Of a stretch of DNA of 64,000 nucleotides, positions 19,370 to 26,681 are shown one piece after another. Source of the stretch: Cyanobium sp. N.Huapi 1H5 (GTDB lineage Bacteria; Cyanobacteriota; Cyanobacteriia; PCC-6307; Cyanobiaceae). Position numbers and translations under genes: made by a program. Position 1 is the stretch's first letter. Each line of letters starts with the position of its first letter. Location of the stretch: the NCBI RefSeq assembly GCF_024345535.1, contig NZ_JAGQBH010000001.1, positions 620,001 through 684,000 of the forward strand, written 5' to 3'. The notes beneath the pieces are model-generated. The model saw nothing but the letters and a program-made list of their open reading frames with translations, ran no database searches and was not told where the DNA came from.

Positions 19370-21181
19370 CTAGGGAGCTTCTGTCCCCTGGGCCGCATGC
19401 CGCGCCGCGCCGCCGAGGCCGAAGGCCTGGTGCACCGCCTGAAGGGCGCGCACACCATCAGCCTCCGCCACCACGCAGCTGGTGCGGATCTCGCTGGTGG
19501 CGATCAGGGAGATGTTGATGCCCGCATCGGCCAGGGAACGGAACATCCGTGCCGCCGTGCCGGCGGTGCAGGCCATCCCGGCGCCCACGGCGCTGACCCT
19601 GGCGATGGCCGGGCCCTCCTCGAAGCAGGCGCCGTCCCACTGGCGCAGGATCGGGGCCAGGGCCCGCTCGGCCCCCGGCCGGTCGTCGCGCCGCAGGGTG
19701 AAGCTCATGTCCCGCCGCCGATCCTCCGGGCCGCCATGGGTGCGCTCCGACTGCACGATCGCGTCGAGGCTGATGCCCGCATCGGCCAGGGCCCGGCAGA
19801 TGGCCGCGGCGGCCCCGGGCCGGTCGGGCACCCGCCGCACCGACACCTGCACCTGGTCGCGGTCGAGGGCCACGCCCCGCACCGCCGGATCCCCCAGGTG
19901 GCAGGGGGGCGGATCGTGGCGCAGCTGCTGGTCGGCGAGCTCGAAGACCTCGCCCGCGGCCCGCAGGGCCCGGGCCCCCAGCTGGCCATCCACCACGCAG
20001 CTCACCTTCACCTCGCTGGTGGCGATCAGGCGCAGGTTGATGCCGAGGCGGGCCATGGTGTCGAACAGGCGGGCCGCCACGCCCGGTCGACCCAGGATGC
20101 CCGCCCCGGCGATGCTGAGCTTGGCCATGCCCGCTTCGGCCGAGAGCTGGGCCCCATCGGCCCCCATGGCCGCCAGCACCTCCTGGCACACCTGGCGTGC
20201 GCGCTCCATCTCCGTCGCCGCCAGGGTGAAGGCGATGTCGTTGCTGGCGCCCTCGTGGATCGCCTGGACGATCAGGTCCACGTTCAGGCCGGCGGCACCC
20301 AGGGCCTCGAACAGGGTGGCGGCCACCCCCGGCCGGTCGGGCACGTGGGAGAGGGCCAGCACCGCCTGGTCGGCCTCCAGTTCGGCCCCGTCCACGGGCC
20401 GGCCCAGCTCCAGCCCCTCACTGCCGATCGGCCGGGCCGGACCGCTGGTGAGCCGGGTGCCGGGGGCCTGGCTCCAGCTGGAGCGCACCGTCAGGGGCAC
20501 CCCGTAGTTGCGGGCGATCTCCACGGCTCGGGGGTGGAGCACCGCGGCCCCGAGGCTCGCCAGTTCCAGCATCTCGTCGCAGCTGACGCTCTCCATCAGC
20601 TGGGCATCGCTCACCTTGCGGGGGTCGGTGGTCAGCACCCCGGGCACGTCGGTGTAGATCTCGCAGCCGTCGGCGCCGAGGGCGGCCGCCAGCGCCACCG
20701 CGGAGGTGTCGGAGCCGCCCCGGCCCAGGGTGGTGATCTCCGGGGTGCCGGCGTGGCCACTGCTGGTGCCCTGGAAGCCGGCCACCACCACCACGTGACC
20801 GTCCTCAAGCAGGCGGCGCAGCCGCTCGGTGCGCACCTCCAGGATCCGGGCCCGGCCATGGGCCGACTCGGTGATGATCCCGGCCTGGGTGCCGGTCATC
20901 GAGACGGCGGGCACGCCTTCGGCATGGAGGGCCATCGACAGCAGGGCGATCGACACCTGCTCGCCCGTGGCCAGCAGCATGTCCATCTCCCGGCGGGGGG
21001 GATCGCTGCAGAGGCTGGCGGCCATGCCGGTCAGCTGGTCGGTGGTGTGGCCCATGGCCGACACGACCACCACCAGCTCATGGCCCTCCTCGCGGCTGGC
21101 GGCGATGCGGCGGGCCACCGCCCGGATCCGCTCGGTGTCCGCCACCGAGGTCCCTCCGAACTTCTGAATCAACAGGGCCAT
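19370..21181 (-). CDS. lysC: aspartate kinase with extended ACT regulatory region
   Basis: Aspartate kinase opens the lysine/threonine/methionine pathway. The N-terminal kinase domain has KFGGTSVADTERI at residue 8 and the [27 protein letters not shown] active-site block. The C-terminal half holds repeated ACT segments (each with a GVAARLF/AGIN-type pattern, visible four times), the duplicated arrangement usual in cyanobacteria and a sign of amino-acid feedback. The length is 603 residues and the ATG is at 21181. It lies 28 bases downstream of holA on the same strand. Confidence 0.95.
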   Translation of the reverse strand: MALLIQKFGGTSVADTERIRAVARRIAASREEGHELVVVVSAMGHTTDQLTGMAASLCSDPPRREMDMLLATGEQVSIALLSMALHAEGVPAVSMTGTQAGIITESAHGRARILEVRTERLRRLLEDGHVVVVAGFQGTSSGHAGTPEITTLGRGGSDTSAVALAAALGADGCEIYTDVPGVLTTDPRKVSDAQLMESVSCDEMLELASLGAAVLHPRAVEIARNYGVPLTVRSSWSQAPGTRLTSGPARPIGSEGLELGRPVDGAELEADQAVLALSHVPDRPGVAATLFEALGAAGLNVDLIVQAIHEGASNDIAFTLAATEMERARQVCQEVLAAMGADGAQLSAEAGMAKLSIAGAGILGRPGVAARLFDTMARLGINLRLIATSEVKVSCVVDGQLGARALRAAGEVFELADQQLRHDPPPCHLGDPAVRGVALDRDQVQVSVRRVPDRPGAAAAICRALADAGISLDAIVQSERTHGGPEDRRRDMSFTLRRDDRPGAERALAPILRQWDGACFEEGPAIARVSAVGAGMACTAGTAARMFRSLADAGINISLIATSEIRTSCVVAEADGVRALQAVHQAFGLGGAARHAAQGTEAP

Positions 21182-21209
21182 TCCCGCGTTGCCGGCGCAT
21201 CCGGCCCGA

Positions 21210-22214
21210 TTATCGACGCGGGGCGCTCCCGGGCTGGGCCAGGGCGGCCAGCAGGAAGCCGTCCCGGAAGGCGTCGCCGGGGTCGGCGCCGCGCTTGAGG
21301 GCGGCCTCCACGTCGAGCAGGCGGCGCAGCAGGGCCAGCAGCTGCTCGGGGCTGCGGCCGCGGATCTGTTTGCGCATCACGTAGATCCGCTTGGGGTTGC
21401 CGATCCCCGCGGCCTTGGCGATCACGGCCACGTCCTGCTCGCCGCTGCGCTCCAGCAGGCACACCCACAGCCAGCCCCGGATCTGACTGGCCAGGGCCGC
21501 CACGACGCGCAGGGCGGGCTCGCCCACCTCCAGCAGGGCCTCCACCAGGGCGATGGCCTCGGCGGGGCGCTGGGCGAGAAGGGCGTCGCCCACGGCCAGG
21601 CTGCTGGTGACCTGGCCGCCGATCAGGGCGGCCACCGCCTCGGCGGTGATCGGCCCACCACTGCTGCCAGTGCCGGCGTGGAGCGCCAGCTTCTCCAGCT
21701 CGCTGGCGAGCCGCATCCCGTCGCTGCCGATCGCCTCGGCCAGCGCCTCGGCCGCCGCCGGCGCCAGGGTCAGGCCCCGGGCCCGGGCGGCGCTCTCCAC
21801 CCGTTCGATCTGACCCGCCCCGTCCCAGATCGGCGGCAGGGTGAAGGACTGCTCCTCGGCCAGGGTCCGCAGGCGCTTGGTGGTGCGCAGCCGGGCGTCG
21901 GGCTTGCCGTCGCTGACCAGGAACAGGTGGCAGTCGTCCGGGACCAGCGCCACGGAGGCCTCCAGCTGGGCCGCCAGCTCCGCCGGGCAGGCCTGGCAGA
22001 AGGGGCTGCGCTGCAGCACCACCACCCGGGCCCCGGCGCCGAAGGGGGAGGTGCGGGCCTCCTCGAGGGCCCGGGCCGCCTGGACGGCATCGGCCCCATC
22101 CAGGCGGCTGAGGTTGATCGAAGCCCAGGCGGGATCCACCAAGGCCTCGATCCGCTCCGCCAGGGCCCGCTGGCGGGCGGCCTCGTCGTCGCCCCAGTAG
22201 AGGTGGATGGGCAT
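21210..22214 (-). CDS. holA: DNA polymerase III subunit delta
   Basis: The delta subunit opens the sliding clamp within the clamp loader. The sequence starts MPIHLYWGDDEAARQR and shows the delta-specific ARRVVVL-type strand (GARVVVLQRSPF), LFLVSDGKPDARLRTTKRL, the ELEKLALHAG block and the C-terminal collar domain. The length is 334 residues, normal for the family. Its ATG at 22214 overlaps the stop of the Phd-PIN gene (TGATG), so translation is coupled to that gene. The open frame continues far upstream but those residues overlap the Phd-PIN gene in another frame and are not used. Confidence 0.9.
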   Translation of the reverse strand: MPIHLYWGDDEAARQRALAERIEALVDPAWASINLSRLDGADAVQAARALEEARTSPFGAGARVVVLQRSPFCQACPAELAAQLEASVALVPDDCHLFLVSDGKPDARLRTTKRLRTLAEEQSFTLPPIWDGAGQIERVESAARARGLTLAPAAAEALAEAIGSDGMRLASELEKLALHAGTGSSGGPITAEAVAALIGGQVTSSLAVGDALLAQRPAEAIALVEALLEVGEPALRVVAALASQIRGWLWVCLLERSGEQDVAVIAKAAGIGNPKRIYVMRKQIRGRSPEQLLALLRRLLDVEAALKRGADPGDAFRDGFLLAALAQPGSAPRR

Positions 22215-22906
22215 CAGGGCAGGGGCGGGCGCGACGGCGGCGGCAGGACGCCGAGCAGGCGGGGGTCCTGGCTGATCATCGCCGTGGCTCCGCCATGCAG
22301 GGCCGAGGCCAGCTCCAGGGCGCCATCGGGCCCCAGGGCCGGCCCGGTGCCGGGCCGCTGCAGGCGTGCCGCCGCCAGGGCGACCTGGGGCGTGAGGCTC
22401 ACCAGGGTCCAGGCCGCAGGATCGCTGAACACGGCTTCGTAGCGGGCCGCCAGGGTCTCGTCCCCCCGGAGCAGGGGCCCCTCCACCAGCGTCCTCAGGG
22501 TGGCCATGCTCAGGACCCCGCGCCAGTGGCCGGCGGCGATCGCGGCGATCAGCGGTTCGTGCCGGCGGCCGCTGGCGTCCCCGCGCAGCCAGGGAATCAG
22601 CACCGTGGCGTCGATGGCCACGGCCGATCCGAGGGCCAGGGCGGCGCCGCCGTCCAGGGGCGTGATCAGGGGCTCGGCCGGTCCGCGACCGCCGGCGGGG
22701 GCCGGCAGGGGATCGGGCCAGCAGTCGCGGCCGCTGCCCTTGAGGGCGATCAGGGCCTGCCGCTGGGCACGGTGGCGCCGCCACAGGGGGACCAGGGCGG
22801 CCACCGCGTGGCCATGGCGTGCGATCAGGGTCTCCTCGCCCTCCCGGGCCCGATCGAGCAGTTCGGGGAAGCGCTTCCTGGCCTCGAGCACGCCGAGGGT
22901 GTGCAT
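22214..22906 (-). CDS. Phd-type antitoxin fused to PIN-domain toxin
   Basis: This 230-residue protein joins two halves normally made by separate toxin-antitoxin genes. Residues 1-42 (MHTLGVLEARKRFPELLDRA then REGEETLIARHGHAVAALVP) match the Phd/YefM DNA-binding fold. Residues 43-68 (containing ALKGSGRDCWPD) resemble the Phd C-terminal tail. Residues about 95-225 match a PIN nuclease with candidate acidic residues D99 (AIDATVLIPWL), E142 (TLVEGPLL), D194 (LGPDGALELASAL) and D214 (ISQDPRLL). The ATG at 22906 begins exactly at the Phd motif; a start 44 codons earlier would add an Arg/Pro-rich stretch across the operator. holA is coupled downstream. Toxicity and self-neutralisation are inferred only. 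Confidence 0.8.
   Translation of the reverse strand: MHTLGVLEARKRFPELLDRAREGEETLIARHGHAVAALVPLWRRHRAQRQALIALKGSGRDCWPDPLPAPAGGRGPAEPLITPLDGGAALALGSAVAIDATVLIPWLRGDASGRRHEPLIAAIAAGHWRGVLSMATLRTLVEGPLLRGDETLAARYEAVFSDPAAWTLVSLTPQVALAAARLQRPGTGPALGPDGALELASALHGGATAMISQDPRLLGVLPPPSRPPLP
22536..22543. repeat. HIP1 octamer GCGATCGC
   Basis: This is a copy of the cyanobacterial HIP1 palindrome, located inside the PIN part of the Phd-PIN gene. Confidence 0.7.
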
Positions 22907-23208
22907 GGGTCGCGGGGTCGATATCGGAATCTGTACACAATGTACAGGTCTTGGATTCAGTGGAGAACGACTGCCCCTGGCCTTGCCCCTTCGCCTGGCA
23001 CTGTTCCGGCCCCTGGGCCCCTCTCCCGGCCCCGGCAAGGGCCAAGCCCACCGGCATGGCTGAGGTCTCGCCCCTGCACGGTCGGCTCGACCACGACCAA
23101 AGCCCCGGCCCCGACCGGCGCCTCCCGTAGCCTCGCCGTTTCCCCCCTCCGGGCTGCAGGCCGCGCCGGGCGCCGGGGGAGGTTCTGCGCTCCGGGGCGC
23201 CGCAGGCG
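22907..23208. other. 302-base gap between divergent phd-pin and cobH
   Basis: The part next to the Phd-PIN gene holds the paired TGTACA site. The rest is GC-rich. I looked for a B12-box and other cobalamin riboswitch features in front of cobH and saw none. No convincing open frame is present. Confidence 0.6.
22932..22946. promoter_or_regulatory. paired TGTACA operator, probable autoregulation site of Phd-PIN
   Basis: The sequence TGTACA-CAA-TGTACA has two palindromic hexamers at 22932-22937 and 22941-22946. It ends 26 bases upstream of the phd-pin start. TGTACA is the known core recognised by YefM, a member of the same antitoxin family, in the yefM-yoeB operator of E. coli. Binding here is an inference from motif and position. 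Confidence 0.65.
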
Positions 23209-23871
23209 ATGGACAGCTTCGATTCTTCCCGCTCCGCGGCCTCCCTCGACCATCCGATCTTTCGGGAGAGCGTGCGTCGCATCCGCGGTTGGCTGGGGCC
23301 CACCGGCCTGGAGGGGGTGGAGCAGGAGGTGCTCGAGCGCCTGGTGCACAGCAGCGGCGACCTGGCCCTGGCGCCGGATCTGCGCCTCGGGCCGGGGGCC
23401 TGCGCCGCCGGCCTCAACGCCCTGGCGGCCGGCGCGCCGATCCTCACTGACACGGCGATGGCCGCGGCGGCCGTGGCGCCCATGGCCCGGCGCACCTTCG
23501 CCAATCCGGTCCATTCGGTGCTGGCCTGGGCCCCTGCCGTCGCCCCCGCCGGCGGCACCCGGGCGGCGGCGGGCATGGAGCGGGCCCTGGTGGAGCACCC
23601 CGGAGCGGTGGTGCTGGTGGGCAGCGCCCCCACGGCGCTGGAGCGGCTGCTGGAGCTGGTGGAGGCCGGAACCATCGCCGCCCCGGCCCTGGTGATCGGC
23701 ATGCCGGTGGGGTTCGTTGGGGTGGCCGAGAGCAAGCGCCACCTGGCGGCCAGCGCCCTCCCCCAGATCCGCCTGGAGGGCAGCAAGGGCGGGGCCGGCC
23801 TGGTGGGCGCCGCCGCCAATGCCCTGCTGCGGCGGGCCTGGCTGGATCAGGCCGCTCTGGGTCCCCCCTGA
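23209..23871 (+). CDS. cobH: precorrin-8X methylmutase
   Basis: CobH/CbiC moves a methyl group from C11 to C12 of the corrin ring in cobalamin synthesis. The family pattern is clear: [16 protein letters not shown] at the start, ERLVHSSGD with the catalytic histidine in [27 protein letters not shown], and [18 protein letters not shown]. The length of 220 residues is normal. The ATG is at 23209. It is divergent from the Phd-PIN gene, and its 3' end overlaps the convergent mutS end by 25 bases. No other cob gene is in the window. Confidence 0.93.
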
Positions 23872-26681
23872 AGTCCCACCGCCACATGGCTGTTGGCCTC
23901 GATGCGGCCCAGCACCTGGCGGGCCCGCAGCACCACCGAGGCGGGAACGCCCGCCAGCCGTGCGGCCTCGATGCCGTAGCTGCGGCTGGCGCCCCCCCGG
24001 CAGACCCGGTGAAGGAACACCAGGTCGTTGCCGGTCTCCTCCACCAGCACCTGGGCGTTGCCGACGTTCGGCAGCAGCTCGGCGAGCTCGTTGAGCTCGT
24101 GGTAGTGGGTGGCGAAGATCGTGCGGGCGCCGATGCCCTCGGCCAGGTGCTCCGCCACCGCCCAGGCGATCGAGAGGCCATCGAAGGTGGCCGTGCCCCG
24201 GCCGATCTCGTCGAGCAGCACCAGGGAGCGGGGGCTGGCGTGGTGAAGGATGTTGGCGGTCTCGGCCATCTCCACCATGAAGGTGGACTGCCCGCTGGCC
24301 AGGTCGTCCACCGCCCCCACCCGGGTGAAGATGCGGTCGGCGATGCCGAGCCGGGCGGAGCGGGCCGGGATCCAGCTGCCGATCTGGGCCATCAGCTGCA
24401 GCAGGCCGCTCTGGCGCAGATAGCAGCTCTTGCCGCTGGCATTGGGCCCGGTCAGGACGATCAGGTCCGGCGCCGGGGTGCCCAGCTCCAGGTCGTTGGC
24501 GGTGAAGGACGCATCGACCAGCAGCTGCTCCACCACCGGATGGCGCCCCGCCTCGATCACCAGCTCGCGGCCCTCGCTGAGTTCGGGCCGGCAGTAGCCG
24601 CCGGTGGCCGCCACCTCCGCCAGGGAGGCCAGGGCATCGAGTTCCGCCACCCGCCGGGCCGCCGCCCGAACGGGCCCAGCCGCCTCCCCCACCCGGCGGC
24701 GCAGGTCGCAGAAGAGGTCGTACTCCCGCTGGCAGGCCCGGGCCCGCAGCTGCAGGATCCGGCCTTCCCGGCCCTTGAGCTCCGGGGTCACGAAGCGCTC
24801 CTCGTTGGCCAGGGTCTGGCGGCGGATCCAGTGGTCCGGAACGGCGGCGGCCCGGGCGCGGCTCACCGCCAGGAAGTAGCCGAAGGTGCGGTGGTACTGG
24901 AGGCGCAGGTTGGGGTTGCCGCTGGCCCGCCGTTCGATCGCCTCCTGCCGGGAGAGCCAGGCCTCCTGGTCGTCGAGCTGGTTGCGCAGGCCGTCGAGCA
25001 CCGGATCGACCCCGTCATGGAGCAGCCCGCCGTCGCTCAGCGACAGGGGCGGCGTGTCGATCAGGTGGTGGCGCACCTCCTCGGCCAGGGCGGCCAGCTC
25101 GGGCCAGGGACCCTTCAGGGCCGCCAGGGGGCCGCTGCGGCAGGGGGCCACCAGGGCCGCCAGGCGCGGCAGCCGCTCGAGGCCGTCGGCCAGGGACACC
25201 AGGTCGCGGGCGGAGGCGCTGCCGGCGCCGGCCCGCCCCGCCAGCCGCTCCAGATCCCCCATGGGCCGCAGCAGCCGGCGCAGCCCCACCCGCAGGGAAC
25301 GCTGCTCCACCAGCTCGCTCACCGCCTCCTGCCGCTCCAGGATCGCGGCCCGGTCCACCAGGGGGGCCTCGATCCAGCGCCGCAGACAGCGGCCGCCCAT
25401 GGCGGTGGCGGTGCGGTCGAGGGCCCAGAGCAGGGAACCCTGCAGGGCGCCGCCCAGCTGGGTGCGGGTGAGCTCCAAGTTGCGGCGGGTCTGGGCGTCG
25501 AGCACCAGCTGGTCGCCGGCGTGCCAGAGCCGGGGCATCTCCAGCGGGATGGCCGCGGCGCCCTCCGTCGCTGTCGCCGGGGCGAGTTCGGGCGCCGCCT
25601 GGGTGGTGTCCAGGTAGGCCAGCAGGCCCCCGGCGGCCCGCAGCGCCAGGGGCGCCTCCCCCAGCCCCAGGCCATCGAGGCTGGCCAGGCGGAAGCGGCG
25701 GCGCAGCAGGGCGGCGGCTTCGGTGGCCTCGAAGGGGGTGCGGGCCAGGGGGGTGAGCCGCAGACCCTCGGGGCACCAGGCGGGTGCCTCCGCCGGGCCG
25801 GGCCACACCACCTCGGCGGGCTCCAGCTGCAGCAGCTCCTGGTGCAGGCTGCCGCTGCCCGTGCGCTCGGTCACCCGGAACTCGCCGGTGCTGACGTCGG
25901 CGACGGCCAGGCCCCAGCGGCCCGCTGCGCTGCCGTCCCCGTCGAGGACCACGGCGCAGAGCCAGTTGTTGCGGCGGGCCGCCAGCATGCCCTCCTCCAG
26001 CACCGTGCCGGGGGTGAGCACCCGGGTGATGCCGCGCCGCAGCAGGGCCCCCTTGGCGGGGGTGGCCTCCAGCTGGTCGCAGAGGGCCACGCTGAGGCCG
26101 CGGCGCACCAGGTCGGCGCAGTAGCGCTCGGCGGCGTGGTGGGGGATGCCCGCCATCGGCACCCGGCCCAGGGCCTTGCCGGCGTCCTTGCCGGTGAGGG
26201 TGAGCTCCAGCAGGCGCGAGAGCAGGATCGCGTCCTCGAAGAAGAACTCGTAGAAGTCGCCGAGGCGGTAGAGCAGCACCCGGTCCGGGTGGGCCGCCTT
26301 CAGCTCCACGTAGTGCCGCAGCACCGGGGTGAGCGCCGCCGGGTCCACCAGGGAATGGTGGTGCCAGCGGGGCAGGTCGCCATCGGGCTCCGGGCCGTCG
26401 TCGCCGGGCGTCGCCGGGGCGCCGCTGGCGTCGCCAACTCTCGGGTCACTGGCCTGCTCGCCGTCGGCCTCGTTGCCGGTGGCCGCAGCCGTCGCCGGCC
26501 GCTGCCGGCGGGTGCGGGGCCGGGCGCTGGCATCGGCCAGCAGGGCCTGGTCGTCCGGGGCGCCCCCATCCGACGCCGAGTCCGGCGCCAGCGAGGTGGG
26601 CTCGGGCGTGCCCCCGAACAGGTCCCCCTGCAGGGCCGGATCGTCCGCGAGCGAGAGCTGCTGCTGGACTTCCCTGGCCAT
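23847..26681 (-). CDS. mutS: DNA mismatch repair protein MutS
   Basis: MutS1 recognises base mismatches. The Phe-X-Glu mismatch-reading motif is in GDFYEFF, after an unusually long N-terminal extension: about 125 residues rich in Ala, Asp, Pro, Gly and Thr precede the [17 protein letters not shown] block. The ATPase domain has the Walker A motif [14 protein letters not shown] and the [12 protein letters not shown] block. The C-terminus includes the [13 protein letters not shown] and [12 protein letters not shown] segments. The ATG at 26681 gives 944 residues. Its end runs 25 bases into the convergent cobH. Confidence 0.95.

Follow-up and report, generated by a model that had tools for sequence, protein, structure and literature searches.

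A Phd antitoxin-PIN toxin fusion directly upstream of holA in Cyanobium and its relatives, a candidate domesticated toxin-antitoxin complex

In ordinary toxin-antitoxin (TA) modules the toxin also serves as a co-repressor, and an excess of toxin or the loss of antitoxin relieves repression. TA autoregulation and conditional cooperativity are described in PMC4826407. EzeT of E. coli unites an antitoxin and a zeta toxin in one chain and is thought to have come from the fusion of a two-gene operon (PMC4826407, PMC4803016), and in a Phd-RelE fusion of Ralstonia eutropha the toxin is described as probably lacking enzymatic activity, the fusion's status as a dead end or otherwise being left open (PMC4826407, after Loris and Garcia-Pino 2014). 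With regard to separate genes, the two-gene association of PHD with PIN has been counted (PMC2701414), and a study of TA systems in an estuarine Synechococcus deals with separate gene pairs, its main text containing none of the words 'fused', 'fusion' or 'holA'. Neither a Phd-PIN fusion nor a linkage of one to holA was described among the matches listed from the open-licence literature, which is weak evidence of absence. CapRel has a toxin of another kind, a toxSAS. It likewise holds toxin and antitoxin in one chain, differing from the protein described here in that it senses a phage protein (PMC13423816), and the likeness is one of description. One-chain TAs thus have precedents in EzeT and CapRel, and Phd fusions in the R. 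eutropha protein.

Here we describe a fused Phd-PIN gene from Cyanobium sp. N.Huapi 1H5, found in a window of 64,000 nucleotides (the whole stretch of DNA that was analysed), and consider that on balance it probably encodes a domesticated single-chain TA complex which represses its own promoter, and hence the holA operon. An initial annotation, made from the sequence of the window, had placed a Phd/YefM-like N-terminus and a PIN nuclease in one frame at 22214-22906, leaving the strand unstated. A single open frame of 230 aa was indeed present on the minus strand (22214..22906; ATG at 22906, TGA at 22216-22214), and the plus strand of 22214-22906 matched 0 Pfam families. Domain searches and a structure prediction of the full chain, both recommended in that annotation, bore out the two-domain composition. 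The Phd/YefM DNA-binding domain (aa 1-41; 22784..22906, minus strand) matched the Pfam profile PhdYeFM_antitox (PF02604) with an E-value of 1.8e-8 and 34.4 bits against a cut-off of 29.8, and the NCBIfam profile TIGR01552 (phd_fam) narrowly above its cut-off (22 versus 20.8). The VapC-like PIN domain (aa 97-217; 22256..22618, minus strand) matched Pfam PIN (PF01850) with an E-value of 2e-4 and 22.4 bits, 1.2 below the cut-off of 23.6, and its assignment draws in addition on fold comparisons and residue tables. An AlphaFold2 model built from 26 aligned fused proteins had a mean pLDDT of 87.3, and its residues 91-224 resembled VapC toxins, the best being 4chg_A (VIA-align 2; Z 11.8, 120 residues, 2.5 A). 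In a Foldseek search with the model, 4xgr_C was the sole chain to pass an E-value of 0.001 (3.4e-4), and the N-terminal part gave weaker matches to VapB46 and phage P1 Phd (E-values of 0.027 or more).

Between the two domains lie a conserved LKGSGRDCW segment (aa 55-63; 22718..22744, minus strand) and a variable linker rich in Pro, Ala and Gly (aa 64-94; 22625..22717, minus strand), the latter marked by low pLDDT (53-55 over approximately aa 71-90 of the model). Arginines R10, R12 and R30 of the Phd domain were invariant in all 46 fused proteins collected as described below, and within the LKGSGRDCW segment G57 was found in 46/46 and W63 in 42/46. A segment of the same type (GSGRxCW) recurs in the separate antitoxins of two-gene relatives, within their C-terminal half, and is largely common to both forms. 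By its N-terminal domain, its arginines and a TGTACA-type operator before the gene, the protein would belong to the Phd/YefM family on sequence grounds, and its predicted structure has the PIN fold of the VapC family. A type II TA consists of two separate proteins with a removable antitoxin, a description that suits the gene layout of three two-gene relatives (L063, L064 and L058) and does not suit the fused gene. Having both domains in one chain, the fused protein has the layout of a single-chain TA in the manner of EzeT, with an N-terminal antitoxin and a C-terminal toxin; it differs from what is described of EzeT in that the latter has a zeta kinase whose toxin domain is active when freed, whereas the window protein has a PIN domain with canonical acids lost and a YefM-like operator.

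Relatives were sought in a family sample of 400 genomes of uneven completeness with matches accepted at E <= 1e-3, and 71 genomes matched, some merely through Phd antitoxins elsewhere. The loci examined were 52 from 51 genomes (L001, L003-L031 and L045-L066), including that of the window. A Phd-only paralogue (L002) and weak Phd- or PIN-only matches (L067-L072) were dropped before counting, and L032-L044, which match contigs already in the set in length, were not counted a second time; by tblastn, the protein was found in L067 and L068 only of L067-L072, and holA in none of these six. The gene was fused in frame at 46 of the 52 loci (window included), divided into two genes at three, and broken or largely lost at three (L017, L065, L066). 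A sequencing frameshift joining two genes, which the initial annotation had named as a finding that could overturn it, was excluded, since 45 further relatives were also fused in frame. Among the relatives are Aphanothece cf. minutissima CCALA 015, Synechococcus sp. BO 8801 and Cyanobium sp. CACIAM 14.

The occurrence of the gene was patchy, with 16 of the 42 genomes of the window's genus holding it, one of them in decayed form (G005), and 6/13, 1/6 and 1/31 genomes doing so in the genera to which the three two-gene holders belong. Within the window's genus, the 16 holders were exactly those genomes whose holA was 86-100% identical to that of the window; the 19 other genomes with a holA match stood at 70-78% identity. 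Searches of 72,556 plasmid and 50,697 phage records gave no match at E 1e-3, leaving plasmid- or phage-borne copies unsupported, and PADLOC defence-system profiles gave none at E 1. No RNA family reached its gathering score at 21000-24000. The fused gene is dispensable, as 3 of the 52 loci were broken or largely lost, the start was lost in L010 and most family genomes gave no match. At L010 (G148) the fused frame was intact and CAG stood where ATG was expected, the start being lost or shifted, and at L065 (G155) the fused frame was broken at an inverted repeat, as an assembly artefact or in reality.

The gene that follows on the same strand is holA, encoding the DNA polymerase III delta subunit (21210..22214, minus strand; TIGR01128, 158.9 bits against a cut-off of 80, with a further match to Pfam DNA_pol3_delta). 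As had been claimed, the TGA of the fused gene overlaps the ATG of holA in the sequence TGATG. The annotation had regarded holA as an odd partner; the linkage proved real and is no local oddity, as holA was next on the same strand in 52/52 loci. The collection of homologues it had advised gave conservation of the fusion in 46 and of the holA linkage in 52 of the 52 loci. Further profile-supported neighbours were an aspartate kinase gene after holA and a divergent precorrin-8X methylmutase gene upstream, which we take to be cobH.

Rates of substitution were estimated by the Nei-Gojobori method as medians of the 91 pairwise comparisons among 14 members of the genus (L010 left aside), with the linker segment set from approximately aa 39 to the start of the PIN domain. 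The median dN/dS was 0.12 for the Phd domain, 0.60 for the linker, the highest of the segments, 0.28 for the PIN domain (range over pairs 0.06-0.69), 0.32 for the whole gene and 0.20 for holA. The Phd and PIN domains are under purifying selection, and the linker is much less so. These values bear on the idea that the gene is a neutralised relic, its frame held open only through TGATG translational coupling of holA. Such a relic would suit the position of the stop codon, which in fused loci overlaps holA or lies no more than 52 nt before it, as well as the three decayed loci and the lost start codon in a fourth. Selection acts at the protein level on both domains, however, the operator is conserved, 14 PIN columns are invariant in the 46 fused proteins, and holA itself is undamaged at the loci with a broken upstream frame, so that we regard a mere relic as improbable.

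An operator-like site, TGTACA-CAA-TGTACA, is located at 22932..22946 (strand unassigned), 25 bp upstream of the ATG of the fused gene. A relaxed form of the pattern occurred once in the 64 kb against an expectation of 0.03, and GTAC-N(3-7)-GTAC was found upstream in 45 of the 52 loci, with 6 matches in the remaining 158 kb of those loci. The site was kept in both two-gene and fused forms. The pattern was missing from L019, L049, L057, L059, L060, L061 and L066 (7/52), although a one-mismatch form was recognised by eye at L049, L057, L059 and L060, and tandem arrays with a 9-bp period were present at L028, L030, L031, L052, L055 and L056. Three fused loci with an altered operator (L057, L059, L060) also had no GSGRxCW segment, and L062 had no segment but kept the operator. 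A scan for sigma-70-like promoters over 21150-23300 found none. In the operators of YefM and Axe the two TGTACA cores of a pair stand 12 bp apart, and R10 and R31 of YefM are needed for DNA binding (PMC7730913, PMC4803016). As far as these sources describe them, YefM-YoeB and Axe-Txe thus resemble the present gene in a paired TGTACA operator and in arginines at similar N-terminal positions, with R30 here plausibly corresponding to YefM R31, an equation made by position only. They differ in the centre-to-centre spacing (12 bp, as against 9 bp in the window) and in the toxin, which is YoeB or Txe in those modules and a covalently attached PIN domain here.

The initial annotation had named four candidate acidic residues of the PIN domain (D99, E142, D194 and D214). 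Catalytic columns were assigned from an alignment of the 46 fused and three split proteins, not from structure, and residues were counted by script with the broken L017, L065 and L066 left aside. D99 and D214 aligned with canonical PIN acids, whereas E142 and D194 did not; these two, which lie close to the canonical positions, were rejected as the canonical pair by alignment to the split forms, in which the canonical Glu corresponds to T139 of the window protein and the third Asp to G195. By this alignment two of the four canonical acids are thus replaced in the window protein. All four were kept in 3/3 split proteins, which lie at the same pre-holA locus. Among the fused proteins, the first Asp column held D in 43/46 and E in 3/46, the canonical Glu was kept in 3/46 (with D in a fourth), the third Asp in 0/46 and the fourth Asp in 23/46. 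PF01850 scores were 13.9-28.1 bits in the six fused proteins scanned and 47.9, 54.9 and 59.2 bits in the three split toxins.

Judged from the alignment, this loss of canonical acids in the fused clade is not a pattern of simple decay. Position 198, three residues beyond the third Asp, was acidic in 46/46 fused proteins and Q in 3/3 split proteins, and position 142, three residues beyond the canonical Glu, was E or D in 39/46 fused and T in 3/3 split proteins. In the window's genus, E stood at 142 in 12 of 15 proteins, and position 194 was D in seven, E in seven and A in one. An acid was present at alignment column 223 or 226 in 41/46 fused proteins and at the fourth site, in place or one residue earlier (columns 313/314), in 44/46. 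Conservation of the displaced acids keeps a rebuilt metal or nuclease site alive as a rival reading, in which the protein is a single-chain TA whose Glu and third Asp have shifted by three residues, about one helical turn, to E142 and E198. The Phd and GSGRxCW segments would then restrain the PIN domain, to be freed by cleavage or by a partner protein, in the way proposed for EzeT or seen in CapRel. There is a precedent in VapC1 of NTHi, where E120, an acid three residues on, appears to be used in place of D117 (PMC4229260), and EzeT is described as a single-chain TA with a cis antitoxin (PMC4826407). Acids occurred at or near all four sites in 40/46 fused proteins, and L018 and L020, opposite to most fused proteins, kept the canonical Glu and had Q at the displaced position, as if the one substitutes for the other. 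Against this, 5 of the 46 had no acid at either Glu column, three of them in the window's genus (L007, L013, L016), and the PIN profile scored lower in the fused proteins scanned. Overall we hold a rebuilt site to be unlikely, if worth serious consideration. Its most elaborate version, namely a metal site rebuilt one helical turn away (D99, E142, E198 and an acid at 213/214), silenced in cis, released by a signal, tied by operon to the clamp-loader gene holA and still being replaced horizontally by canonical two-gene alleles, appears marginally more doubtful.

In the two-gene relatives, the TGA of an 84-aa Phd gene overlaps the ATG of a 149-aa PIN gene at L063 (G192), the two frames overlap by ten bases at L064 (G127), and they lie a few bases apart at L058 (G181). 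Compared with the two-gene modules of Phd and PIN (VapBC-type) as described, the window form draws on the same domain families and differs in being one chain with two canonical acids lost. A phylogeny of the PIN sequences was rooted on an outgroup comprising 10 of the more distant PINs of the class, which had been retrieved with the L063 toxin; all ten kept the canonical motifs when judged by eye; no holA was found near the more distant PINs within the 1.5 kb fetched on either side (tblastn, E 0.01). All 46 fused sequences formed one clade (99/98), with the split sequences between it and the outgroup, and the fused sequences still formed one clade (SH-aLRT 98.8) when the alignment was stripped of its catalytic columns and of most linker positions. 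An independent fusion in each genus was unsupported, given this single clade.

The holA tree paired L063 with the fused L023 as sisters (100/96), and the distribution of split and fused forms there requires three changes, whilst in the PIN tree a grouping of L063 with the fused L023, L024 and L048 of its own genus was rejected (p-AU 0.00013). This conflict was explained by near-identical flanks around a divergent cassette. L063 (G192) and L023 (G168) were 97.0% identical from 40 bases before holA onwards and 90.4% identical over 345 columns of the upstream flank, whereas the cassette between these flanks aligned over 167 nt only, at 69%. Plain vertical descent of the G192 two-gene form was ruled out by the rejected grouping together with the difference between flanks and cassette. 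The likeliest history, as far as can be read from these sequences, would be one ancient fusion, followed later by recombination in the flanks that put a two-gene cassette in the place of a fused one. The G192 contig is short (7,650 bases), which leaves a small chance of an assembly chimera.

In a further rival reading the fused gene would be an antidote (anti-addiction) allele, the antitoxin segment of which neutralises in trans the active two-gene form circulating at the same site. The two-gene cassette of G192 set between flanks nearly those of the fused G168, the rejection of L063 from the fused sequences of its genus and the GSGRxCW segment largely common to both forms all speak for such an allele. 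However, the part of the antitoxin that follows GSGRxCW (16, 16 and 21 aa in the three split antitoxins) has given way to linker in the fused proteins, and the two-gene loci are just 3 of 52, so exposure may be rare. We give this function little credence.

Of the three options put forward in the initial annotation, a domesticated regulator was the best supported, on account of the conserved operator, the invariant N-terminal arginines, the loss of canonical PIN acids and purifying selection; a relic fitted the dN/dS values poorly, and a cleavage-activated nuclease was weakened, its residual plausibility resting on the conserved displaced acids. According to the domestication reading, an ancient two-gene pair of a Phd antitoxin and a VapC-like PIN toxin directly upstream of holA would have become one chain, and the PIN part would have been left with two of the four canonical catalytic acids, its fold being kept by selection. 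The product would be a covalently locked antitoxin-toxin complex, its Phd part binding the TGTACA pair that precedes the gene's start codon by 25 bp, and its PIN part serving for dimerisation and co-repression instead of RNA cleavage. VapC1 of NTHi offers a parallel, in that its D99N mutant is described as non-toxic and still forms a promoter-binding complex with VapB1 (PMC4229260, citing earlier work), which implies that a PIN domain can lose catalysis and retain its regulatory role. With toxin and antitoxin locked by fusion at 1:1, the derepression switch would be removed, and neither antitoxin decay nor toxin excess could relieve repression. The outcome would be a constant autorepression of the transcript, on which, judging by the TGATG overlap, holA should be present too, as a presumed passenger or beneficiary.

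Several observations count against domestication. The displaced acids are strongly conserved and a dead enzyme would not obviously need them, the gene is dispensable, 7 of the 52 loci have no operator, no sigma-70-like promoter was found at 21150-23300, the operator spacing is 9 bp instead of the 12 bp of yefM-yoeB, and single PIN pairs reach a dN/dS of 0.69.

The question left open for the Phd-RelE fusion in the account of PMC4826407 is whether a fused TA is a dead end or a working device. The two cases are alike in that a Phd antitoxin is fused to a probably dead toxin; they differ in that the toxin there is RelE, whereas the window family has a PIN domain, forms a conserved clade with a conserved operator, is under purifying selection and has two-gene relatives at the locus. 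Before and after states, the two-gene form with all canonical acids and the fused clade without them, stand at one locus with an operator-like site in both, which makes TA domestication, and the separation of the repressor role from the toxic one, directly testable. The proposal would have an essential replication gene run from a toxin-antitoxin promoter.

The position before holA may be an insertion hot spot, as suggested by other inserts and long gaps there. L157 (G062, of the window's genus), which has no fused gene, carried an unrelated Phd and PIN pair between the precorrin-8X methylmutase gene and holA (PF02604, 41.1 bits; PF01850, 55.9 bits). The same gap measured 655-1016 nt in L152, L156 and L158; of the 12 stretches examined, 7 had a gap of 11-155 nt.

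Sites with the sequence TGTACANNNTGTACA were present in 15/15 genus genomes with a fused frame, at 1-11 sites each, the single exact site of G286 not being at the fused gene. No exact site was found in G005, with its decayed gene, or in 25 further genomes without the gene (0/25), and G304 had five, although neither the gene nor holA was matched in its assembly. When one mismatch was allowed, G005 had two sites (one at the decayed gene) and 3 of the 4 gene-less genomes tried had one or two. This co-occurrence is no independent test, since the gene-bearing genomes form one holA group (86-100% versus 70-78% identity). The sites may be a regulon, titration sites or a repeat family, the last because some are long palindromes with differing arms.

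At G000, three of four other TGTACANNNTGTACA sites fell outside the ORFs that passed a codon-bias filter. With the genes named by eye, one of these lay between chlM- and rluD-like genes, one before a thiC-like gene and one on the 3' side of a lepA-like gene; the fourth site was within the first codons of a short ORF with a doubtful start (L141). The site upstream of the thiC-like gene, likewise named by eye, was followed in 20 of 21 matching genomes. It was absent from 3/3 genomes outside the holA group, and within the group it had 0-1 mismatch in 12 of 17 (G304 included), was half lost in G198 and was absent in G005, G286, G250 and G268. Clusters of operator-like palindromes were also seen at L132, L137 and L138 among small AbrB-, MazF- and PIN-like genes (identified by eye), and resemble TA islands.
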